NCBI GenBank assembly: GCA_020850455.1
Contig: JADZEQ010000005.1
Span: forward strand, 656,873-720,872
Direction of reading: 5' to 3'
DNA length: 64,000 nucleotides
From: Sphingomonadaceae bacterium
Lineage (GTDB): Bacteria > Pseudomonadota > Alphaproteobacteria > Sphingomonadales > Sphingomonadaceae
Part shown: in pieces, positions 1,529 to 43,812 of the stretch
How the letters are laid out: each line of letters begins with the position of its first letter
Position numbering within the stretch: position 1 is the first letter of the stretch
Position numbers and translations under genes: made by a program
The notes under the pieces: generated by a model
Database searches by the model: none
What the model was told of the DNA's origin: nothing
The model's input: only the letters and a program-made list of their open reading frames with translations

Positions 1529-3400
1529 ATGCGTTCCTTACAAATTATCTCCGCCACGGCGCTCGCATTGGCGCTGGCCAGTCCGGCATGTGCCGCCGAC
1601 AATGACTCTGCGGGCGATGCAGATGCCCCTCTGGTCGTCACCGCGACTGGCGAACCAACGTCCGGCGCCGATGTCGGGCAGGCGATCAGCGTTATCACCG
1701 CTCAGGATCTGGAAAATATTCAGGCGGTAACAATTGCCGATGCGCTGCGCACCCTGCCCTCGGTCGCGGTGGCGACGCGCGGCGGGGTCGGCGGGCAAAG
1801 CAGCGTCTTCATTCGCGGTGCCAATAGCTCGCAGACACTGGTGCTAATCGACGGCGTCCGGGTCAATGACCCGTCCGGCCCCAACGGCGCCTTTGATTTT
1901 GGTGCGCTGCTCACCGGCAGTATCGCGCGGGTGGAGGTGCTGCGCGGTGCCAATTCGGTCATCTGGGGCAGTCAGGCAATCGGCGGGGTGGTGGCGATTG
2001 ATACAACGCCGCCGACCGACAGCCTCCAACTCTCTGCGGGGGCGGAATATGGCTATGCCGACAGCGCCCGCGCCTATGCACAGGCGTCGGGGCGCAGCGG
2101 CGCATTGTCGGGCGGTATTGGCGGCAGTTGGTATCGCAGTGACGGCATATCCTCCCTGCGCGGGGGGAATGAGCGCGACGGGTTCGACAACCTGATGCTC
2201 AACGCCCGTCTGCGCGCCGACATTGCGCCCGCCACCTATGTCGAGGGCAATGCGCTGCTGATCGATGGCAAGCTTGCATATGATTCGCCCTTTGGCGTCG
2301 GGGCCAATGCCCTGCCGGTCAGCGACAACCGCCAATGGACCGCGCGAATTGCCGGGGGCACCGCGTTGTTCGGCGGCGCGCTCAGCACCCGCCTCTCCTA
2401 CGCCCGCACCGATATTCGCCGCATCGGCACCGATCCTGTCGTATTTTCCTTTAACAATTTCCGTGTGTTCGGGGTGATAGACCATTTTGAATGGCACAAT
2501 AGCCTGCATGCAGCGCCATGGCTGACGCTGCAATTTGGCGGCGAACATATGCGCACCCGGTCGAGCACCAGCTTTGAGGGGGCACCCGCCGACCGCGCAC
2601 GCGACCGGCAAAGCGGTGGCTTTCTGCTCGCGACCTTGCGGCCAGTGTCGGGGATGACGCTGACAGGCGGGGTGCGGCGCGATGATTATCGCGATTATGG
2701 TGCACGGACCAGCTTTGCCGCCAATTTCGCTTACAGTCCCAATGGCGATGCAACCATTTTGCGCGCCAGCTATGCGGAGGGGTTCCGCACCCCGACATTG
2801 ACTGAGGGGCAGCCGCCGTTCGGCAACCCGGCGCTGCGCCCGGAATCGAGCAAAAGCTATGATATCGGGGTCGAACAAAAGCTGTTGGGGGATGCGCTGC
2901 GCCTTTCCGCCACCTTGTGGCAGCGCAATAGCGCGGATCTGATCGCCTTTTCCTTTACGACATTTCGGTCGGAAAATATTGAGCTGGCCCGTGCGCGCGG
3001 GGTGGAATTGGCGCTGCAGGCTGCACCGACCCCGCGGCTTAACCTTACCGCTAACTATAGCTTTACCGATGCCCGCAACCGGACACCCGGCGCGCAGTTT
3101 GACAAGCAATTGGCGCTGCGCCCGCGTTCGAACCTCGCCCTCATCGCCGACTGGCAAAGCCCGTGGGGGGTGAAATTTGGTGCGACGCTGACGATGGTGG
3201 GCGACAGTTTCGACGATGCCGCCAATAACGTCCGGCTCGATGGCTATAGCCTGCTCAGCCTGCGCGCCAGCATCCCCATCCGCGATAATGTGGAGTTTTT
3301 TGCGCGCTGCGACAATGTCACCGACAGCGATTACAGCGTGGTGTCAGGCTATTCGACTTATGGCCGTAGCGCCTATGCCGGTGTGCGGTGGCGGCTGTAA
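1529..3400 (+). CDS. btuB: TonB-dependent vitamin B12 receptor
   Basis: 623 residues, close to E. coli BtuB (614). A signal peptide ends at PACAA. The N-terminal plug has ITAQDLENIQ and VLIDGVRVNDPSG, and the rest is a 22-strand-type barrel ending YAGVRWRL. The role is energised uptake of cobalamin or corrinoids across the outer membrane. Assignment to B12 rather than a siderophore rests on the cobalamin riboswitch directly upstream and the downstream ABC transporter. AGAGGA is well placed before the ATG. The 3' end overlaps the next gene by 13 bases. Confidence 0.9.
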   Translation: MRSLQIISATALALALASPACAADNDSAGDADAPLVVTATGEPTSGADVGQAISVITAQDLENIQAVTIADALRTLPSVAVATRGGVGGQSSVFIRGANSSQTLVLIDGVRVNDPSGPNGAFDFGALLTGSIARVEVLRGANSVIWGSQAIGGVVAIDTTPPTDSLQLSAGAEYGYADSARAYAQASGRSGALSGGIGGSWYRSDGISSLRGGNERDGFDNLMLNARLRADIAPATYVEGNALLIDGKLAYDSPFGVGANALPVSDNRQWTARIAGGTALFGGALSTRLSYARTDIRRIGTDPVVFSFNNFRVFGVIDHFEWHNSLHAAPWLTLQFGGEHMRTRSSTSFEGAPADRARDRQSGGFLLATLRPVSGMTLTGGVRRDDYRDYGARTSFAANFAYSPNGDATILRASYAEGFRTPTLTEGQPPFGNPALRPESSKSYDIGVEQKLLGDALRLSATLWQRNSADLIAFSFTTFRSENIELARARGVELALQAAPTPRLNLTANYSFTDARNRTPGAQFDKQLALRPRSNLALIADWQSPWGVKFGATLTMVGDSFDDAANNVRLDGYSLLSLRASIPIRDNVEFFARCDNVTDSDYSVVSGYSTYGRSAYAGVRWRL

Positions 3401-4254
3401 ATCGCCTGCTTATCCTAAGCCTCCTCCTCCCGCTCGGTGGGTGTGCGCCCTTGCGCGCACCACCCGCACGGGGGGAGGTGCGGGTGGTCAGCATCGATTA
3501 TTGCGCCGATCAAACGGTGCTCGGCCTAGTTCCATATCGCCAGATTGCCGCCATATCGCGGGAGGCAGACAGCGACCCCGGCTATGCCCGCCCGCGCGCG
3601 CACGGACTCCGCCGCATCCGCCCCGATGCGGAAGCGATATTGGCGCTGCGCCCGACGCTCGTCGTGCGCAGCTATGCCGGGGGAGCACGCTTTGACACGG
3701 TGATGGCGCGCGCCGGGGTGCGGGTCGTCACCCTGCCCTATGCGGCCAGCCTGTCCGATATTGGCCCGTCGATCGGCACAACCGCCACCATGCTCGGGCA
3801 AGAGGCACGCGGGCATGGTCTGCGCGCCGCATGGGATGCGGCTTTGCGCCGCGCCCATGCCCTGCCGCGCCGCAACTTGCGCGCGCTCTATATGACGCCG
3901 GGCGACGTCACCAGCGGGCCCGACAGCCTGATCATGGCGATGGCGGCGGCGGCGGGCCTCAAACCCTATGTAACACGGGCGGGCTGGCACCCGCTGCCGG
4001 TCGAGGCGCTGCAATATCGGGCGCCCGACATCGTGCTGCGGGGATTTTTTGACAGTCCGGCCTACCAACAGGACCGTTGGGCAGCATCGCGCCATGCGGG
4101 GGCAAAGCAGGCACTGCGCCGCGCCATCAGCGTCGATATCCCCGGCTATGCGCTCGCCTGCGGTAATTGGACGGCAACCGACGCACTCAACGCCATGGCC
4201 GATGCCGCGCAGCGCGCAGAGGCTGGGGGCGAGACGGGAAATATGCAGCCATGA
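3388..4254 (+). CDS. btuF: B12 ABC transporter substrate-binding lipoprotein (BtuF-like)
   Basis: 288 residues, helical-backbone metal/cobalamin receptor family (periplasmic binding protein PF01497 type). It has a signal sequence with lipobox LGGC, so it is probably membrane-anchored rather than free. The mature part starts VRVVSIDYCADQ, the usual first strand of the family. It would bind corrinoid delivered by the receptor and pass it to the permease. The start is GTG inside the end of btuB; the stop overlaps the permease start as ATGA. The family also contains siderophore binders, so the ligand is assigned by riboswitch and neighbours. Confidence 0.82.
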   Translation: MAAVNRLLILSLLLPLGGCAPLRAPPARGEVRVVSIDYCADQTVLGLVPYRQIAAISREADSDPGYARPRAHGLRRIRPDAEAILALRPTLVVRSYAGGARFDTVMARAGVRVVTLPYAASLSDIGPSIGTTATMLGQEARGHGLRAAWDAALRRAHALPRRNLRALYMTPGDVTSGPDSLIMAMAAAAGLKPYVTRAGWHPLPVEALQYRAPDIVLRGFFDSPAYQQDRWAASRHAGAKQALRRAISVDIPGYALACGNWTATDALNAMADAAQRAEAGGETGNMQP

Positions 4255-5243
4255 CGTCACGCCAATTCACCCTGTTGCTGATCCTTTGTGCCCTTGGCGC
4301 ATTATTGCTCGCGCTCATGCTCGGCCCGGTAGCGATTGACCCCATGACGGCGGCGCGGGCGCTTGGCGGGGGTGGGGATGATGCGGCGCGCACCATCCTC
4401 ATCGATATACGGCTGCCGCGTGCCATCGCCGCGCTGCTGGCGGGCGGGGCGCTCGGCATTTCGGGCGCGGCGCTGCAAGCATTGCTGCGCAACCCACTCG
4501 CCGAACCGGGTGTCTTGGGGGTCAGCGCCAGCGCCACCACCTGCGCCACGGCGGCGATCTATTTCGGCCTTGCCGCTATCGGCGCATGGGTCGTGCCACT
4601 GGCATCGCTGGTCGGCGCCTTGGCGGCGACGCTCATCCTCTCTGGCGCAGCGATGCGCCTGCGCGGGGTGGCGAGCCTCCTCCTTCTCGGGATCGCGCTT
4701 ACCGCCTTTGCCGGCGCGGTGATGGCGCTGTTCGTCAACCTTGCCCCCAACCCCTTTTCGCTGTCCGACCTAATCAACTGGACAGCGGGTTCGGTTGCCA
4801 ACCGTGATTGGCAGGATTGCGTGGTGAGCGCGCCCTTCATTCTTGGCGGTATCGCCTTGCTAGTGACCCAACGCCGCAACCTATCCCTGCTGTTATTGGG
4901 GGATGAGGCAGCGTTCAGCCACGGACTGGATTTGCGCACCACCCGCCTCACCATCGTTATCGGTACCGGATTGGCGACCGCCGGGTCGGTCGCGCTCGCC
5001 GGGATGATCGGCTTTGTCGGGCTGGTCGCCCCGCATGCGGTGCGCCTATTCCTGCGGAACGATGCCGGGGCGAGCCTGATCCCCGCCGCGATCATGGGCG
5101 GCGTCATGACATTGCTCGCCGATGTGGGCGTGCGGCTCTTTCCATGGGGCAATATGCTCCATCTGGGGACGATCGCCGCCCTGCTCGGCGCGCCGGTTTT
5201 TGTCCTGCTTGTCCTGCGTTGGGGGAATGTGCGCCATGGTTGA
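4251..5243 (+). CDS. btuC: B12 ABC transporter permease (FecCD/BtuC family)
   Basis: 330 residues, highly hydrophobic, with the multi-helix FecCD architecture. Family signatures include GALGISGAALQALLRNPLAEP near residues 65-85 and GMIGFVGLVAPHAVRL near residue 255. It forms the inner-membrane channel with the ATPase encoded next. The ATG at 4251 forms an ATGA overlap with btuF; an upstream in-frame ATG at 4167 would lengthen the protein with a charged, non-family tail and is rejected. The 3' end overlaps btuD by eight bases. Confidence 0.9.
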   Translation: MTSRQFTLLLILCALGALLLALMLGPVAIDPMTAARALGGGGDDAARTILIDIRLPRAIAALLAGGALGISGAALQALLRNPLAEPGVLGVSASATTCATAAIYFGLAAIGAWVVPLASLVGALAATLILSGAAMRLRGVASLLLLGIALTAFAGAVMALFVNLAPNPFSLSDLINWTAGSVANRDWQDCVVSAPFILGGIALLVTQRRNLSLLLLGDEAAFSHGLDLRTTRLTIVIGTGLATAGSVALAGMIGFVGLVAPHAVRLFLRNDAGASLIPAAIMGGVMTLLADVGVRLFPWGNMLHLGTIAALLGAPVFVLLVLRWGNVRHG

Positions 5244-34558: not shown

Positions 34559-34635
<77 letters not shown>

Positions 34636-35988: not shown

Positions 35989-36984
35989 ATGACGTCATTT
36001 TCGGGTTCATTTGCTGCACGCCACGCCTTGTTGGCGACCAGCGCGATATTCATTTTCTCTGCCCTGCCCACCATTGCCCATGCAGCGGGAACGCGCGCTG
36101 GCACGGTGATTTCCAACACCGCCAGCGCGACTTTCGACAATGGGGGTGGTTCGACCACGGTCAATTCGAATACCAACACGCTGACCGTTGATGAATTGAT
36201 CGAAATCGACGTTGACTGGTCGGACAGTGCCGATGTGGTGACGACCCCGGGAGCCACCAGCCAGCCGCTCAAATTTCAGGTGACCAACAACGGTAACGGC
36301 GTTGAAACCTATGGCTTGGCCACCGTTTCGACGATTGGCGGCGACAATTATGACCCCAGCGTGACGCAAATCGTCATCGATGATGGCGATGGCGTTTATG
36401 AACCGGGGCAAGACACCATCTATGTACCGGGCAGCAATGATCCGGTGCTGAACCCCGACCAAAGCATCACCGTCTTTGTCCTGTCGACGACGCCGGGTGG
36501 CTTGGCCGACGGCGATCGCGGCGGCGTGCAGCTGACCGCCACCTCCAAGACCGGCACCGGCGCACCGGGCACCAGCTTTGCGGGTGCCGGTGAAGGCGGC
36601 GGCAATGCCGTCCTCGGCACCTCTGGCGGCGATGATTCGGACAATGGATTTTACATTGTGTCGTCGGCCAACGTGTCGATCGCCAAGAGTGCGACTGTGC
36701 TCGACCCCTTTGGCGGAACCGGCGTCGTTCCGGGTTCGACCATCACCTACACATTGGTCGCAACGACCACCGGTTCGGGCAATCTGCCCAATTTGGTGAT
36801 CAGCGATGCCGTCCCGACCGGCACGACCTATGTCCCCGGTTCGATCACATTGGGCGGCACCGCGCAAAGCGATGCCAATGATGCCGACGCTGGCCGGTTC
36901 GGCAGCGGCACCGTCACCGTCAACCTCGGCACCGTTGCCGGGGGACAGACACGCACCATCACCTTCAAAGCCACGGTTAATTGA
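35989..36984 (+). CDS. Exported DUF11-like repeat protein (first of operon)
   Basis: 331 residues, no named family beyond a DUF11/conserved-repeat-like C-terminus. A signal peptide ends at about residue 31 (IAHA|AGT). The mature N-terminus has ISNTASATF ... VNSNTNTL (41-64), a motif shared with two later genes. The middle contains a possible calcium loop DDGDGVYEPGQD and long Gly/Ser/Thr stretches. The last 90 residues (VVPGSTITYTL ... ISDAVPTGTTYVPGSI ... TRTITFKATVN) form the DUF11-like domain. It is paralogous along its length to the protein at 37550-38608. A structural surface or secreted role is inferred. Confidence 0.75.
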   Translation: MTSFSGSFAARHALLATSAIFIFSALPTIAHAAGTRAGTVISNTASATFDNGGGSTTVNSNTNTLTVDELIEIDVDWSDSADVVTTPGATSQPLKFQVTNNGNGVETYGLATVSTIGGDNYDPSVTQIVIDDGDGVYEPGQDTIYVPGSNDPVLNPDQSITVFVLSTTPGGLADGDRGGVQLTATSKTGTGAPGTSFAGAGEGGGNAVLGTSGGDDSDNGFYIVSSANVSIAKSATVLDPFGGTGVVPGSTITYTLVATTTGSGNLPNLVISDAVPTGTTYVPGSITLGGTAQSDANDADAGRFGSGTVTVNLGTVAGGQTRTITFKATVN

Positions 36985-36995
36985 GGATTTTGGCC

Positions 36996-37478
36996 ATGAA
37001 ACGCATGATTTCATTCGCTTTCGCGCTCAGCCTCGCCAGCGCATTGCCCGGCGTCGCACAGGCCCAAAGCGCCAATGCGGTCGCCATCGACAGCAATGTG
37101 ATGGTCGAACGCACGACCACCGATGCCGCCGGACGCAGCCAAACGATGCTGGAGGAACCGCGCGTCGTGGTGCCGGGCGACAAGCTCGTCTTCGTTCTTA
37201 ACTATCGCAACAATGGCGTGCGCGCGGCGAGCGACTTTGTCGTTACCAACCCGCTGCCGCAGGCGGTCGCCTTTGACGGCACCAGCGACGCCGACGCCAG
37301 CGTTTCGGTCGATGGTGGGCGTAGCTGGGGCCAACTTGCCACGCTTTCCATTCGCAATGCCGACGGCACCAGCCGCCCCGCCCGGGCGGAGGATGTCACG
37401 CATATCCGCTGGGCCTTCCAGCAACCCATCCCGGCTGGGCGTGCCGGTCGACTGATGTTCCGTGGCGTCGTTCGGTAA
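36996..37478 (+). CDS. Small exported DUF11-like protein
   Basis: 160 residues from ATG 36996, 11 bases after the previous stop. Signal peptide MKRMISFAFALSLASALPGVAQA, then essentially one DUF11-like domain: VVVPGDKLVFVLNYRNNGVRAASDFVVTNPLPQAVAFD, followed by WGQLATLSIRNADG and a closing GRLMFRGVV strand. It lacks the SNTA motif of its neighbours. The PGD...Y.N.G...D..P pattern matches the C-terminal domains of the two flanking proteins and residues 370-480 of the giant protein, so it may be a chaperone-like or minor structural component (inference). Confidence 0.72.
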   Translation: MKRMISFAFALSLASALPGVAQAQSANAVAIDSNVMVERTTTDAAGRSQTMLEEPRVVVPGDKLVFVLNYRNNGVRAASDFVVTNPLPQAVAFDGTSDADASVSVDGGRSWGQLATLSIRNADGTSRPARAEDVTHIRWAFQQPIPAGRAGRLMFRGVVR

Positions 37479-37549
37479 AATTCACGCGGAAATTCAAGAC
37501 TCTGTCAGACCTTTCGGGTGGCAGGACCAGACCCTAGAAGGAGCATGAA

Positions 37550-38608
37550 GTGACGATTAAAAAACTGCACATGGGATCGTGCGGTATCGTCGCGCTGGCA
37601 GTGGCTAGCGCGACGCCGGCGCTTGCTGGCGGGACCACCGCAGGCAGTTCGATCACCAACACCGCGTCGATTAGCTATAGCGTCGGCGGGGTTTCGCAAC
37701 CATCGGTCAATTCGAACACCGACAGCTTTGTCGTTGACCGCAAGGTGAACCTGACCGTCGCCGAAGTCGGCAGCGCGACGGTGGTTGTTGCCCCCGGCCA
37801 AAGCGGAGCCTATACGACTTTCACCCTGCAAAATACGTCGAACGCGGTGCTCGATTTTGCACTGGCAGCCAGCCAGACGGCGGGCGGCACCGCTGCGCAT
37901 GGCGGCACCGATAATTTCGATGTCACAGGCGTTACCATCTATCGCGATACCAATGGTAACAGCACCTATGACGCGGGCACCGACACCGCCGTTACCTACA
38001 TCGATGAACTGGGTATTGATGCGACCGTCACCCTGTTTGCCGTCGCCAATGTGCCGTCGGGCTTGTCGACGGGCGATGTTGCCAACATTCGTCTGACCGC
38101 AACGGGCCGTGAAGGCGGCACTGCCGGGTCGATGGGCGCAGCGCTGGTGCAAACGGCGGGTGCCAATACGGCGGCGATGGATACGGTCTTTGCCGATGCG
38201 GCGGGCGTTGCCGATGCCGCGCGCGATGCAGCGCATAGCGATGATGATGATTATACCGTCGCCACCGCCGCGCTGACCGTCACCAAGTCGAGCAGCATTG
38301 TCTCTGACCCGGTGAATAACGTCACCAACCCCAAGGCGATCCCCGGCGCGGTCATCAGCTACTGCATCCAGATCGCCAACGCATCGGGTGGTGCGGCCGC
38401 GACCTCGGTCAGCGTCAGCGACGTTGTGCCGTCGGACATGACCTATGTTACTGGTTCGATCCGCCTCAACGGGACGGTGACCGGCAGCACCTGTAACGCC
38501 GACGGCGTTGCGGGGGGCAGCTACTCCTCCGGCACCGTGTCGGGGACGATTGCAACCATCGCTGCTGGCGACACGCGCACTCTGGTGTTCCAGGCTACCA
38601 TTAATTGA
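37550..38608 (+). CDS. Exported DUF11-like repeat protein (paralogue of first gene)
   Basis: 352 residues. GTG at 37550 is chosen because AAGGAG lies seven bases upstream and no in-frame ATG gives a signal peptide. The signal peptide ends at PALA|GGT (about residue 26). The mature start has SITNTASISY ... VNSNTDSF (34-60). A calcium-loop-like DTNGNSTYDAGTD occurs mid-protein, DSDDDD-type acidic residues near 230, and a C-terminal DUF11-like domain AIPGAVISYCIQ ... VSDVVPSDMTYVTGSIRLNG ... TRTLVFQATIN. Same order of parts as the first gene. Function unknown. Confidence 0.75.
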   Translation: MTIKKLHMGSCGIVALAVASATPALAGGTTAGSSITNTASISYSVGGVSQPSVNSNTDSFVVDRKVNLTVAEVGSATVVVAPGQSGAYTTFTLQNTSNAVLDFALAASQTAGGTAAHGGTDNFDVTGVTIYRDTNGNSTYDAGTDTAVTYIDELGIDATVTLFAVANVPSGLSTGDVANIRLTATGREGGTAGSMGAALVQTAGANTAAMDTVFADAAGVADAARDAAHSDDDDYTVATAALTVTKSSSIVSDPVNNVTNPKAIPGAVISYCIQIANASGGAAATSVSVSDVVPSDMTYVTGSIRLNGTVTGSTCNADGVAGGSYSSGTVSGTIATIAAGDTRTLVFQATIN

Positions 38609-38614
38609 CGATTT

Positions 38615-38663
38615 GGGGCGGCTGAAGGGCGCGTTCGATAGTGGACGCACCCCCAGCCGCCCC
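38615..38663 (+). terminator. Strong stem-loop between the third and fourth operon genes
   Basis: GGGGCGGCTG (38615-38624) and CAGCCGCCCC (38654-38663) are perfect ten-base complements with a further GCGT/ACGC pair inside, followed by TTTC. It lies six bases after the stop of the exported protein and 22 before the giant gene. It may act as a partial terminator or RNA-processing/stability element that lowers expression of the giant protein relative to its small partners. Confidence 0.55.
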
Positions 38664-38685
38664 TTTCGGCATTTAGAAATTAACC

Positions 38686-41600
38686 ATGAAAATCAATTGG
38701 CTAAAATTGCTGATTGGCGCGACCGCCGGGGGTGCAGCATCGCTGTTGCCCGCGATTGGCCACGCGCGGGAAATCAGCAATACGGCCGAGGCGTCTTGGG
38801 GCAATGCCGGTGCAGTGCGCACCGTCCGCTCCAACACGGTGCTGCTGGAGGTGGAAACACCGACCCCGCCGATTGACGCCAAAATCTATGCTATTCAGCC
38901 ACCCGGCACGCCGGGGATCGGCAGCTTTATCGATTCGAGCGGCTGCGGCACCGGCGGCCAGGGCGTGTTCGGCACCGGTTCGGGCGGTGCATCGCCGGGC
39001 GGCGGCGCGGTTTCGCTCAACCCATCCAACCAATTTACCGCCGGTCAGCCGGTGGCGTTCGGCATATCCTCCGCCGCCGACAATCTCAGCCCGACGGTGC
39101 GCGATACGCTGGCGGTCACTATCCGCACCGCCAATGGCGATGAAGAATCGCTGATTCTGCGCGAAGATTCGGTGAATAGCGGCTTTTTCGTCGGTTACCT
39201 CGCGACGATAAAGATTCCCCCCCCGCTGGTGCAGCATGATTGCCGCCTGTCGGTGTCCCCCGGCGGGTCGATTGCGGTCAATTTGTTCCGAAATGGGACA
39301 GGAACGCCGATGGCCACCGCGCAGGTGAGCTTTTTGGTCGATCCCTTTGGCATTGTTTTTGACAGCGGCGATGGCACGCCTGTTTCGGGCGTGCGCGTGA
39401 CGCTGATTAACGCCGACACCGGCCTTCCGGCGGCAGTTTTCGGCGATGATGGGGTGTCGTCATACCCCAGTAGCATGGTGACCGGCTCTAGCGTCACCGA
39501 TTCGGGCGGAACGGTGTATAATTTCCCAACCGGGGATTATCGCTTTCCATTTGTTGCGCCCGGCAATTATAGGCTGCGCGTTGAGCCCAATGATCCCTAT
39601 CATTGGCCGTCGACCGCCACCCCTGCCGAGCTGGCGCCGTTCCGGCGACCCGACAATGGCCAGCCTTATTCGATTGCCGATGCAAGCTATGGCGCGGTTT
39701 TCCGCCTGATGACCCCTGCCCCGGTGCGGATCGATATTCCCATCGACCGCCCCACAGAAGCGCTGATTTTGACCAAAACGGCGAGCGCGGCAGAGGCTTT
39801 GCCCGGCGGGGTGCTGCAATATCACATCCGGCTGCGCAATGGCGATGCGCGGCGAAGTACCGGCACCATCACATTGCGCGACGATTTGCCGCGCGCGCTG
39901 CGTTTGCGGCGCGACAGCGTGCGTTTGAACGGCGCGTCGATTGCCGCGATGGTCGCGGCGGACGGGCGCAGCTTCACCCTGAACCTGCCGGGGCTAGCCC
40001 CGGCGGCAGAGGCTTTGATCACCTACCTCGCCGAAGTGCGGCCTGATGCGGCACCGGGCGATGCGCTCAACATCGCCAGTGCGCGCGATTCGCGCGGCAC
40101 CATATCCAACACGTCCGACGCTAATGTACGGATTAGGCGGGATATTTTGGGCGAGCGTATGACAATCGTCGGCCGTGTCACCGGTGGTGGCTGCGCGGCC
40201 AATCCTGCCGAAGCCCCCGGCTTGGCGGGCGTGCGCGTGCTGATGGAGGATGGGCGATTTGCCGTCACCGACAGCGACGGGCGTTACCATTTCGAAGGGG
40301 TGCAACCGGGCACCCATGTCGTCCAGATTGACCCATCCACCCTGCCCGCGGGCCAAGTCGCGGTCGATTGCGCGCGCAATGTCGAAAGCGCGGGCAACCC
40401 GATTTCCCGCTTTGCCGAGGGGCGCGGGGGCCAGTTAATCCGCGCCGATTTCCGTGCGGCACCCGTCACATCGGCCGAAGTGCCCGCCGATGCGCCGATG
40501 CCGAGCGTGCCGGCAATCGCCGCCCCGCCCCGGCCTGAAGTCGCCAGCGATGTCCATGCCGCAGGCGGCGATATCGACTTTTTTGCCGGGCGCAGTGCCG
40601 GAATTTCGTGGGTTTTCCCCGACGAACATCATAATCCACGCACCCCGGCGATCCGCATCGCCATCCAGCATTTGCCGGGCCAGAGCGTTCAGTTGACGCT
40701 GAATGGCAATCCGGTTGACCCGCTGAACTATGACGGGGCGAGCGCATCGCCCGACGGCAGTTTCCGCATCAGCGTGTGGCGCGGCGTGGCGCTGCGCGAT
40801 GGCGATAATTTGTTCGTCGCGCGCGTGCGCAATGCAGATGGCAGCGAAGCCGCCCAGATCGAACGTCATGTTGCGCTGTCGGGCGGGGCGATGCGCGCCA
40901 CCATCATCCCCGAACGCAGCCTGTTGATTGCCGATGGTCTGCACCGCCCCATTGTCGCGGTGCGGCTGACCGACCGTTATGGCCGCCCGGTGCGCCAAGG
41001 GGTGGTCGGTGATTTTTCGGTCGATGCCCCGCATCGCGCGGCGGTGGAGGCGGATGCCGAACAGGAACGGCAATTATCCGGCCTTGAAAGCCGCCCGACG
41101 ACATGGCGCGTCGCGGGGGATGATGGCGTTGCCTATATCGAATTGCAGCCGACATCGACGTCGGGGACCGCCCGGCTCAACTTCACCTTCCGTAACGATC
41201 AGGTGACGCGCGCGCAGACGCTCGACGTCTGGCTCAACCCGGGGGATCGCCCATGGACCATCGTTGGTTTTGCGGCGGGCACCTTGGGCTACAACACGCT
41301 CGACGCGCATATGGAAAGCGTGGCGGAGGATCTGCCCGGCGACAATGTTGATGGGCGCATCGCGCTTTATGCCAAGGGCCGGATTCTTGGCCAATGGCTG
41401 ATGACGCTCGCCTATGACAGCGACCGGGAACGCGACGATAGCCGCTTTGGCGGGGTGATTGATCCGCGCGCTTATTACACCATCTTTGCCGACCGCAGCG
41501 ACAATGGCTTTGACGCGGCGAGCGTGCGCAACCTGTATGTCCGCCTTGAACGGCCGCAATTCCACGCGCTGTTCGGGGATTTTGAAACCGGGCTCAACGA

Positions 41601-43812
41601 CACGCAACTGGCGCGGTACCAGCGCGCGCTGAACGGTGGGCGCGCCGAATATAATGATGGCAATCTGGCGCTGACCGCCTTTGTCGCCGACACCCCCTAT
41701 CGCCACAGCCGCGAAGAGTTTCAAGGCAATGGCCTGTCTGGCCCCTATCAATTGCGCGCCCGCGACATTTTGGCCAATTCCGAACGGGTGACGATAGAGG
41801 TGCGGGACCGGTTGCGCAGCGACATCATCCTGTCGAGTGAGGTGCTGACCCGCCACATCGATTATGACATTGATTATTTCGCCGGCACCATCCGCTTTCG
41901 CCAGCCGATCCTCAGCCGCGATAATGACATGAACCCGCGCTTCATCGTCACCGATTATGAGGTGGACGGGGTGGGCAGCCGCGTGCTCAACGCGGGTGGC
42001 CGCGCGGCATGGACCAATGATGCAGGTTCGGTGCGCATCGGCGCGACCTTCATCCATGATGAAACCGACAGCGTCACCAACAATCTCGGCGGGGTCGATG
42101 TGCGGCTGCGTCCCAATGACAATACCGAAATCCGCGCCGAATATGCGATCAGCAATGATGATCGCCCCGGCACCGGCACGCCGCACGGTTGGTTGGTCGA
42201 GGTGGAGCATCATAGCGCCGACATCGACCTGCTCGCCTACGCCCGCGAACGGCAATCGGGCTTTGGGGTTGGCCAATTATCGGCATCGGGCGACAGCAGC
42301 CGCCGGGTCGGCTTTGATGCCACATGGCGCTTTGCCCGCGACATGTCGCTGCTCGCCTCCGCCTGGCAGGAAGATTATATGTTGACCGGCGCGCGCCGCC
42401 GTGCGGGCCGCCTGCTCGGCGAATGGCGCTCGCTCGACACCAGCCTGCGTGTCGGCATCACCCATGCTGATGATCGTTTGTCGGACGGCAGCCGCAACGA
42501 CAGCAATATCCTGCAACTCGGTGCGTCGCAGCGGCTGTTCGGTCAAAAGCTCGAATTGTCGGCGCAGAGCGAATTTGCCTTGAGCGGCGATGATGCGAGC
42601 ATCGATTTCCCGGCCCGCCACAGCCTGTCGGCGCGCATCAATCTGATCGACGGGGTGGCGCTGATCGGCAGCTATGAGCTGGCCGATGGGTCGAGCATCA
42701 AGACGCGCACGGGCCGCATCGGCTTTGACGTGACACCGTGGGCGGGTGGGCGCATCAACCTTTCCGGCGCGTCGCAGAATCTCGGCGAATATGGGCCGCG
42801 CAGCTTTGCCGCTTATGGCCTGTCGCAATCGCTGCAATTGTCCGACAAGATTTCGGTCGATGTCAGCATCGATGGCCAGCGCACGCTGGGCGGGGTGCGC
42901 TTTATCGACATTATGAACCCCGCGCACCCGATTGCCTCTGGCGGCCTGCTCGACGGCATGGGGACGATTGTTGAAGATTTCCTCGCCATATCGACCGGCG
43001 CGACGTTCCGCACCGATGATTGGTCGGTGGCGCTGCGCGGTGAATGGCGCGACGGCGAAGTGACCGACCGGCGCGGGGTGACGCTGGGCGCCATCCGCCG
43101 GATAAGGGATGGTGTGGCGCTCGGCGGGCTGGGCAGCTGGACCCGCGCGATCAGCGAAACCGGGGTAGCGAGCGAAACCGCGCAGGGCGAACTCAGCTTT
43201 GCCTATCGCCCCGCCGACAGCCGTTGGGCGCTGCTCAACAAGCTCGAATTTGCTTATGACGAGGTGACGGGCGCGGTGTTGGGCGCACCGGGGCCGATTG
43301 GCGGGCCGGTGCTCAACGTGTCGGGCGATGTCCGTTCGCGCCGGGTAATGAACAGCCTTGCAATCAATTACAGCCCGCTCGGCAATGATGGTGAGGGGGC
43401 GCGGGCGCAATTGATGGGCGGTGGTGCGCGCTGGCACGAACAGGGCGAATATGCGCTGTTCTGGGGCGTGCGCTATGCCAGCGAACGCTATGGGCCGGAT
43501 GATGTTGCCGGTTGGTCGACCGTCATCGGCGGCGATGCCCGCTTTGATGTCAGCCGGCATGTCGCCATCGGCCTGTCGGGCAATTTCCGCATCGGTACCG
43601 ATGCGCGCGCGCGCAGCTGGTCGGCTGGCCCGCAAATTGTGCTGAGCCCGATGCAGGACGCCAACCTCATCATCGGCTATAATTTCAATGGCTATCGCGA
43701 CCGCGATTTCGAAGATGCACGCTATAGCCGCGAAGGTGCCTATGTCACCTTCCGCCTGAAATTTGACCAAACCAGCCTCAGCCGCCTGTTTGGTGGGGAC
43801 GGCGGCAATTAA
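38686..43812 (+). CDS. Giant exported DUF11/Ig-like protein with probable outer-membrane barrel
   Basis: 1708 residues. Signal peptide to about residue 27 (IGHA|RE), then the operon motif EISNTAEASW ... VRSNTVLL (29-53). Further along: a SdrD-B-like fold (about 222-300, VSGVRVTLINADTG ... GNYRLRVEP), a DUF11-like domain (about 358-480, ALPGGVLQYHIRLRNG ... RDDLP ... SVRLNG), and a second carboxypeptidase-regulatory-like fold (493-562, GLAGVRVLMEDG ... DSDGRYHFEGVQPGTHVV). Invasin/Ig-like domains span about 650-850. From about 855 there are roughly 850 residues of alternating amphipathic strands ending GAYVTFRLKFDQ, like an outer-membrane barrel. Codon use matches the host. Likely platform or anchor of the operon; function not established. 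Confidence 0.78.
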   Translation: MKINWLKLLIGATAGGAASLLPAIGHAREISNTAEASWGNAGAVRTVRSNTVLLEVETPTPPIDAKIYAIQPPGTPGIGSFIDSSGCGTGGQGVFGTGSGGASPGGGAVSLNPSNQFTAGQPVAFGISSAADNLSPTVRDTLAVTIRTANGDEESLILREDSVNSGFFVGYLATIKIPPPLVQHDCRLSVSPGGSIAVNLFRNGTGTPMATAQVSFLVDPFGIVFDSGDGTPVSGVRVTLINADTGLPAAVFGDDGVSSYPSSMVTGSSVTDSGGTVYNFPTGDYRFPFVAPGNYRLRVEPNDPYHWPSTATPAELAPFRRPDNGQPYSIADASYGAVFRLMTPAPVRIDIPIDRPTEALILTKTASAAEALPGGVLQYHIRLRNGDARRSTGTITLRDDLPRALRLRRDSVRLNGASIAAMVAADGRSFTLNLPGLAPAAEALITYLAEVRPDAAPGDALNIASARDSRGTISNTSDANVRIRRDILGERMTIVGRVTGGGCAANPAEAPGLAGVRVLMEDGRFAVTDSDGRYHFEGVQPGTHVVQIDPSTLPAGQVAVDCARNVESAGNPISRFAEGRGGQLIRADFRAAPVTSAEVPADAPMPSVPAIAAPPRPEVASDVHAAGGDIDFFAGRSAGISWVFPDEHHNPRTPAIRIAIQHLPGQSVQLTLNGNPVDPLNYDGASASPDGSFRISVWRGVALRDGDNLFVARVRNADGSEAAQIERHVALSGGAMRATIIPERSLLIADGLHRPIVAVRLTDRYGRPVRQGVVGDFSVDAPHRAAVEADAEQERQLSGLESRPTTWRVAGDDGVAYIELQPTSTSGTARLNFTFRNDQVTRAQTLDVWLNPGDRPWTIVGFAAGTLGYNTLDAHMESVAEDLPGDNVDGRIALYAKGRILGQWLMTLAYDSDRERDDSRFGGVIDPRAYYTIFADRSDNGFDAASVRNLYVRLERPQFHALFGDFETGLNDTQLARYQRALNGGRAEYNDGNLALTAFVADTPYRHSREEFQGNGLSGPYQLRARDILANSERVTIEVRDRLRSDIILSSEVLTRHIDYDIDYFAGTIRFRQPILSRDNDMNPRFIVTDYEVDGVGSRVLNAGGRAAWTNDAGSVRIGATFIHDETDSVTNNLGGVDVRLRPNDNTEIRAEYAISNDDRPGTGTPHGWLVEVEHHSADIDLLAYARERQSGFGVGQLSASGDSSRRVGFDATWRFARDMSLLASAWQEDYMLTGARRRAGRLLGEWRSLDTSLRVGITHADDRLSDGSRNDSNILQLGASQRLFGQKLELSAQSEFALSGDDASIDFPARHSLSARINLIDGVALIGSYELADGSSIKTRTGRIGFDVTPWAGGRINLSGASQNLGEYGPRSFAAYGLSQSLQLSDKISVDVSIDGQRTLGGVRFIDIMNPAHPIASGGLLDGMGTIVEDFLAISTGATFRTDDWSVALRGEWRDGEVTDRRGVTLGAIRRIRDGVALGGLGSWTRAISETGVASETAQGELSFAYRPADSRWALLNKLEFAYDEVTGAVLGAPGPIGGPVLNVSGDVRSRRVMNSLAINYSPLGNDGEGARAQLMGGGARWHEQGEYALFWGVRYASERYGPDDVAGWSTVIGGDARFDVSRHVAIGLSGNFRIGTDARARSWSAGPQIVLSPMQDANLIIGYNFNGYRDRDFEDARYSREGAYVTFRLKFDQTSLSRLFGGDGGN

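Follow-up and report, generated by a model that had tools for sequence, protein, structure and literature searches.

What do four consecutive genes for exported proteins, none of them matching a known enzyme or secretion family, encode together? We addressed this question for a locus at 35989..43812 of a 64,000-nucleotide stretch of DNA (the window) from a Sphingomonadaceae bacterium (GenBank assembly GCA_020850455.1, contig JADZEQ010000005.1, positions 656,873 to 720,872 of the forward strand). A first-pass annotation had described it as four consecutive rightward genes for proteins of 331, 160, 352 and 1708 residues that may form an undescribed envelope system, with small exported subunits on an outer-membrane platform. 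The four open reading frames (ORFs), here called A, B, C and D, match this description exactly in place and length, and the proposed division into exported subunits and platform is supported and agrees with the way donor and acceptor ends of the proteins complement each other. At the sequence level the operon is conserved, its products carry complementary truncated and donor ends, a conserved residue triad is split between these ends, and a conserved RNA hairpin lies between C and D. On balance, and with considerable reserve, we favour the reading that the operon encodes a donor-strand surface fibre together with its outer-membrane base.

A (35989-36984, + strand, 331 residues, start ATG) is laid out as a putative donor hairpin, a complete immunoglobulin-like (Ig-like) domain (residues 72-225) and an incomplete DUF11 domain (residues 226-331). 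C (37550-38608, +, 352 residues, start GTG) has the same plan and is, as the first-pass annotation had proposed, a paralogue of A, the similarity extending over nearly the full length (hhalign probability 100, E 1.8e-57, 35% identity). B (36996-37478, +, 160 residues, start ATG) is an exported, single truncated DUF11 domain whose similarity to A is confined to the C-terminus of A. D (38686-43812, +, 1708 residues, start ATG) is a predicted outer-membrane protein, in which an N-terminal donor hairpin is followed by CarboxypepD_reg, complete DUF11, SdrD_B-like and Ig-like domains and by a very large C-terminal barrel. Inspection by eye shows a Sec-type signal sequence at the start of all four proteins, each with an A-x-A site and without a lipobox Cys, and all four have the DUF11 matches expected from the earlier description: A and C, at their C-termini, pass the 24.6-bit Pfam cut-off (25.1 and 27.8 bits), and B and D (23.5 bits) fall short of it. 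In the N-terminal half of D, Pfam finds CarboxypepD_reg with sub-threshold DUF11 and SdrD_B, and the last 1,100 residues have no Pfam match. Consistent with the earlier statement that no known enzyme, secretion ATPase, chaperone or usher is present, no enzyme, ATPase, chaperone, usher or sortase family passes the cut-off in A-D in Pfam or NCBIfam, and no secretion, receptor or autotransporter family was found in Pfam, NCBIfam and PDB sequence searches. A glycoside hydrolase row returned by the D profile against the PDB (E 0.0023 over 58 columns) was judged a stray Ig-like match. The B profile gave eight PDB rows with E values from 0.029 to 0.69, including a grappling-hook protein and sialidases.

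The DUF11 domains of the three small proteins stop short. An uncut domain for reference is available within the operon itself, at residues 355-492 of D (39748..40161, +), and only columns 5-97, 15-97 and 12-96 of its 138-column profile align with the C-terminal domains of A, B and C, respectively (hhalign probabilities 96.3, 95.9 and 96.7). These alignments end 1-2 residues before the last residue of A, B and C, so that about 40 columns are without a counterpart. The alignment of TIGR04226, an isopeptide fimbrial model of NCBIfam that matches 5/42 A, 6/49 C and 0/41 B proteins at E<=0.001, likewise halts at position 105 of 123 where A and C end. Judged by these alignments, the part missing from A, B and C is the last beta-hairpin, the bearer of the isopeptide Asn; in A the open acceptor corresponds to 36664..36981 (+).

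Mature A, C and D, unlike B, start with a segment that resembles the missing hairpin. In A the putative donor hairpin covers residues 33-70 (36085..36198, +; AGTxAGTxIxNTA...), and in D residues 28-57 (38767..38856, +), in both cases at the mature N-terminus. We searched 4,590 N-terminal segments of mechanical ORFs, among which several loci are represented repeatedly, with a donor profile made from 14 of 21 DUF11 tails of other proteins (shifted-register repeats from locus L159 and a duplicate were dropped). At E<=1 the profile matched 6/71 A, 15/111 C and 2/143 D segments and 0/4155 others; at E<=5 the matches were 18 A, 24 C, 6 D and 2 others, an enrichment that holds for the families and does not describe the scores of the window's own proteins. 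No donor hairpin was seen at the N-terminus of B, where the profile matched 0/110 segments at E<=1 and none at E<=5. The position of the Asn agrees as well, as it lies 11 residues past the domain end in 97/97 D-internal DUF11 domains, and 67/68 A and 60/77 C proteins have an A-x-A site that would place it at mature residue 11. Truncated acceptors in A, B and C and hairpin-like N-termini in A, C and D therefore predict donor-strand assembly.

Further support for complementary ends is provided by the Lys-Asp-Asn triad, which forms an isopeptide bond in the DUF11 ('CLIPPER') crystal structure 9IFR (PMC12617251). The acceptor domain of A and C holds the Lys and the Asp, and the Asn sits outside it, in the N-terminal hairpin. 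In the window these residues are Lys233 (36685-36687), Asp273 (36805-36807) and Asn43 (36115-36117) of A, Lys246 (38285-38287), Asp291 (38420-38422) and Asn37 (37658-37660) of C, and the donor Asn32 of D (38779-38781), all on the + strand. Acceptor Lys and Asp are each kept in 68/68 A and 79/79 C proteins, and the donor Asn in 68/68 A, 77/79 C and 96/96 D N-termini (gap rows left out). The complete DUF11 domain of D carries the whole triad (Lys364, Asp399 and Asn462), as do its relatives (Lys 92/96, Asp 97/97, Asn 97/97). B has mostly Arg at the Lys position (54/73, with Lys in 8/73) and Asn at the Asp position (71/73), the window's residues being Arg39 and Asn85, and because of these replacements its joint would be mostly non-covalent. 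Since the triad is near-invariant and yet split between acceptor and donor, the remaining joints may be covalent without a sortase; we regard the chance of covalent joints as about even.

Acceptors that appear to lack a donor are not limited to B. At eleven loci (L095-L103, L065 and L087) one or two large proteins, here called E, are encoded after D. The E proteins have several N-terminal types, and all 13 examined end like A-C (by eye); the Asp is kept in all 11 C-terminal regions compared, and no donor hairpin was seen. By their sequences, the E proteins look like candidate tip adhesins. These proteins bear on whether the hairpins of A and C might pair with the truncated domain of their own chain, so that each subunit would be circularly permuted and closed on itself and might hold an isopeptide bond of its own. 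In the AlphaFold2 (AF2) monomer of A, which together with D residues 625-1708 was all that we modelled, residues 41-70 of the hairpin have a mean predicted local distance difference test score (pLDDT) of 92-93, and self-complementation is known in predictions of donor-strand subunits (PMC9715654). This explanation leaves the D donor, whose own DUF11 domain is complete, and the acceptors of B and E, for which no donor was seen, without an in-chain partner, and we consider it improbable. The best structural rows for the A model were adaptor, integrin and macroglobulin Ig-like domains, with no pilus protein seen among the best 50, and are uninformative for the joint.

If the four proteins work together, their genes should be inherited together. 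Scattered homologues would have spoken against the first-pass proposal, and we found linked ones. Searching 297 genomes of the window's order for D gave a match in 82 and a near full-length match in 75, at 78 loci, and B lies on the same strand 1.1-1.5 kb upstream of D at 77/78 of these (the exception is G158). With presence set at E<=1e-15, the C family occurs in 77 genomes, comprising 75/75 with a near full-length D and 2/222 others (Fisher P 7e-69, not corrected for kinship between genomes); the two are G107, which carries a D fragment, and G171. A scan of species genomes found 86 loci, of which 80 were kept, and the gene order was ABCD at 58, ABC at 5, BCD at 4, D alone at 4, ACD at 2, ABCCD at 2, none at 2, and ABCDC, CBCD and BC at one each, several of the incomplete orders reflecting a locus that runs off the contig end. 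Beyond the order, Luteimonas and other Lysobacteraceae have B-C-D without A, Moraxellaceae bins and one gammaproteobacterial bin have A-B-C-D, and a Burkholderiales bin has B-C at a contig end; in a phylum-wide sample the D barrel profile was found in 48/397 genomes, many with partial matches only. There is good support for a conserved envelope system that appears to be undescribed. Some loci depart from the usual layout: C is duplicated in tandem in L055 (7689-9895) and L066 (2860-5078), and D is split into two ORFs in L061, L091 and L103, by frameshift, assembly error or decay. The L103 record carries the title 'Bordetella parapertussis' and comes from a metagenome bin; its B groups with Moraxellaceae and other gammaproteobacterial bins in the B tree, and the label may be wrong. 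A contig from a viral collection, L234, encodes a D relative with 42% identity at 2001-5204 and is perhaps a bacterial fragment.

The C-terminal half of D (residues ~855-1708; 41248..43809, +) is a predicted beta-barrel of ~34 or more long strands, the first ~130 residues being of low confidence. The AF2 model of D residues 625-1708 (mean pLDDT 70.9, predicted template modelling score (pTM) 0.56) supports, at middling confidence, the barrel-like C-terminus noted in the first-pass annotation. A VIA structural search with this model ranked FimD first, and Foldseek placed an axoneme protein first with SlpA, FimD, LptD and SprA close together at low TM-scores; because the two rankings differ and the scores are low, we claim D only as a large outer-membrane barrel. 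D was rejected as an usher homologue (hhalign probability <1 against 20 ushers, with PF00577 not in D), and PF00577 has 0 matches in the window's own genome. The earlier suggestion to check whether the giant protein is a known receptor or autotransporter gave no such family match by sequence, and none of the known autotransporter translocator families of Pfam and NCBIfam is found in D. In 40 D relatives, the part corresponding to the last 1,100 residues gave weak Ig-like matches (Big_1 in 20, Invasin_D3 in 16) and weak generic barrel matches (OMP_b-brl in 9, MtrB_PioB in 4, BBP2 in 1).

These invasin-type matches, and the order of Ig and DUF11 modules before a C-terminal barrel, would suit an autotransporter-like D that exports its own N-terminal passenger, with A, B and C as unrelated cargo or stalk proteins that share DUF11. 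The near-perfect co-occurrence and order of A-D argue otherwise, as do two features of D relatives. An OmpA domain stands between the N-half and the barrel in L098, L100 and L109 (not in L095; an OmpA match occurs in 5/40 relatives), suggesting that the N-half is periplasmic, and in three of four distant D-like loci (L159-L161, but not seen in L162) the barrel gene is immediately preceded by a gene of its own for the N-half homologue, which gives D the look of two fused partners. We therefore find an autotransporter very improbable, and the N-half of D, with its donor hairpin, would face the periplasm. The OmpA-family domain of some gammaproteobacterial relatives is also what might be expected if A, B and C docked side by side on D as periplasmic or surface accessory domains, in a static adhesin or S-layer-like coat in which D links outer membrane and peptidoglycan and no polymer forms. 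DUF11 is a common stalk module (PMC12617251), and Deinococcus SlpA/SDBC, an outer-membrane S-layer complex, is near the top of the Foldseek list. Such a coat leaves unaccounted for the complementary cut, with open acceptors in A, B, C and E and hairpin-like N-termini in A, C and D, and does not predict the conservation of donor Asn and acceptor Lys and Asp; we think it unlikely, albeit the most serious of the competing explanations.

In the donor-strand fibre that we favour, the hairpin of A or C would complete the acceptor DUF11 of the next subunit, so that the subunits, joined head to tail, would mimic a continuous DUF11-repeat protein. Repeated A and C would form the fibre body, and B, or E in some relatives, would be the distal tip, having an acceptor without a donor. 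D, which has no open acceptor, would anchor the chain by filling the acceptor of the last subunit with its hairpin, capturing it as terminator subunits do in chaperone-usher pili. The split Lys/Asp and Asn would allow isopeptide links at A-A, A-C and D-subunit joints without a sortase. The very large barrel of D could serve as exit pore or anchor, and we see export through D as about an even bet. Joint assembly of the four proteins, and its polarity, we infer from their ends and gene order.

The operon also contains a conserved RNA element that may set the ratio of its products. Between C and D an RNA hairpin is predicted at 38609..38668 (+), with main 10-bp arms at 38615-38624 and 38654-38663 and a folding energy of -41.6 kcal/mol (z -5.9 against shuffles). 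The C|D gap has z<-2 at 63/70 distinct junctions (median -3.68), compared with 6/68 after A, 3/67 after B and 12/71 after D; among background same-strand junctions, drawn from the even-numbered loci of L031-L094 of >=20 kb only, z<-2 occurred in 6/24 and E<-30 in 1/24. In 15 related sequences 10/16 pairs change on both sides, a covariation reached by none of the 500 shuffles and by no slid version. A simple intrinsic terminator was rejected (a U-tract is present in only 19/71 rows and not in the window), and a promoter scan gave nothing informative. The simplest use of the hairpin would be to lower D relative to C, via attenuation or stabilisation of the upstream mRNA, which in a fibre would keep subunits in excess over D.

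Several observations weigh against a donor-strand fibre. TIGR04226 is below the cut-off in the window's own proteins and reaches only a few A and C relatives. The donor-profile matches are short and singly weak, and most A, C and D relatives miss E<=1. When the D tail was compared by hhalign, the A N-terminus ranked first at a probability of just 1.5 and the D N-terminus first at 0.5, and the C N-terminus was not found. The Asn is at position 11 in 9/21 DUF11 tails of other proteins; the remaining tails have it elsewhere, at positions from 1 to 12, a scatter due in part to the extrapolation of domain ends. A and C have alternative A-x-A sites, and the Asn of the window's D would be mature residue 5, not 11. 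No PapD-like chaperone that could protect an open acceptor is found among A-D, the rest of the genome not having been searched for PapD. The D barrel model, with its pTM of 0.56, is of only middling confidence.

The B gene belongs among these points. Relatives of two genes, which we take, without a family search, to encode 5-formyltetrahydrofolate cyclo-ligase and BCKDH E2, both flank the operon at 40/64 loci longer than 15 kb, and 11/64, including the gammaproteobacterial loci, carry none of the flank genes. B is present in 115 genomes of the order sample, 40 of them without a near full-length D, and we surveyed B loci from 28 of these 40, chosen by hand. At 27/28 of these D-less loci (L152-L156, L163-L165, L167-L175 and L177-L186) a lone B stands beside at least one of the operon's flank genes, and at the remaining one, in G171, B follows A; an A/C relative is absent from 27/28 of the genomes, G171 again being the exception. 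The presence of B alone, in genomes without an A/C relative, suggests that it has another role. In a tree of 107 B proteins the lone B genes fall in three supported clades, and the tree can decide neither between one and several origins nor whether repeated loss left B alone (lone B as one group 38/37); seven further B paralogues were fetched from other genomic places. Nor does every operon include B: L052 and L092 carry A and C with no B in between, and in G158 none lies beside D. The earlier view of the four genes as one system thus holds for their linkage and not for B as an obligatory member: B is linked to the system yet has an existence of its own, and a fibre leaves the lone B unexplained. 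Elsewhere in the window there is a tRNA gene on the upstream side of the operon (34562-34635, -), and the window's genome encodes another DUF11-repeat protein (G000:C5:61322-62698; L111, L115) in a 655-aa frame with a DUF11 score of 112 bits.

How does the operon compare with known fibres? Subunits of chaperone-usher pili (FimA/FimH/FimI with FimD) combine an incomplete Ig domain with an N-terminal donor. D has no sequence relation to ushers, its much larger barrel is at the C-terminus (with Foldseek TM-scores of only 0.16-0.26 to FimD), and A-D lack a PapD-like family. The donor here would be a hairpin instead of one strand and the joint possibly covalent; the truncation in A-C is clear, and the donor resemblance is enriched but weak per protein. 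Subunits of the Type V pili of Bacteroidales have a lipobox Cys at the N-terminus; inspection by eye shows A-x-A sites in A, B and C, with position +1 never a Cys. The LPXTG-type signal of sortase pili is absent from A, B and C, whose chains finish with the last DUF11 strand that remains. SprA of the Type 9 translocon and LptD are also outer-membrane barrels of very large size made from one chain, and both are on the Foldseek list for D, but D has no PDB sequence match to them and A-D contain no Type 9 secretion system family. D-like barrel proteins of Erythrobacter and Gammaproteobacteria, named 'OmpA family' or 'MotB', share a homologous barrel block with D; their loci differ in having split genes or an OmpA domain, and no A, B or C family match lies beside the four fetched. 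A precedent is offered by archaeal threads (Saci_0406/Saci_0405; PMC9715654), chains with donor-strand joints for which isopeptide bonds between subunits have been proposed, along with a putative cap that is a protein of its own. Unlike the operon, the threads involve no outer membrane or barrel, and the bond proposed for them uses the N-terminal amine, not a Lys side chain; the likeness is one of plan. CLIPPER/DUF11 fibrillar adhesins (9IFR) share the domain family and the Lys-Asp-Asn triad, but their bond forms within one chain (PMC12617251), whereas here the triad is split between two. Among the top-ranked results in the open PMC literature, none described this operon or an assembly from split DUF11 domains. 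DUF11 occurs in a spore-appendage anchor whose joint is unrelated (PMC11952670), and PMC12282271 concerns DUF1194 and was set aside as not relevant.

We tentatively propose, though we lean slightly against so specific a claim, that the operon represents a new class of Gram-negative fibre, in which split isopeptide subunits would be chained together by donated hairpins and locked covalently with no sortase, and in which a giant one-chain barrel would export and anchor the fibre and bear the terminator hairpin at its N-terminus, in many Sphingomonadales and some Lysobacteraceae and Moraxellaceae. If true, environmental bacteria would have a fibre class independent of any known usher, of a lipoprotein route and of a sortase, and a natural counterpart to the engineered split isopeptide tag/catcher pairs. 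It would also give a role to DUF11, long 'of unknown function', and make the outer-membrane crossing of such fibres testable.

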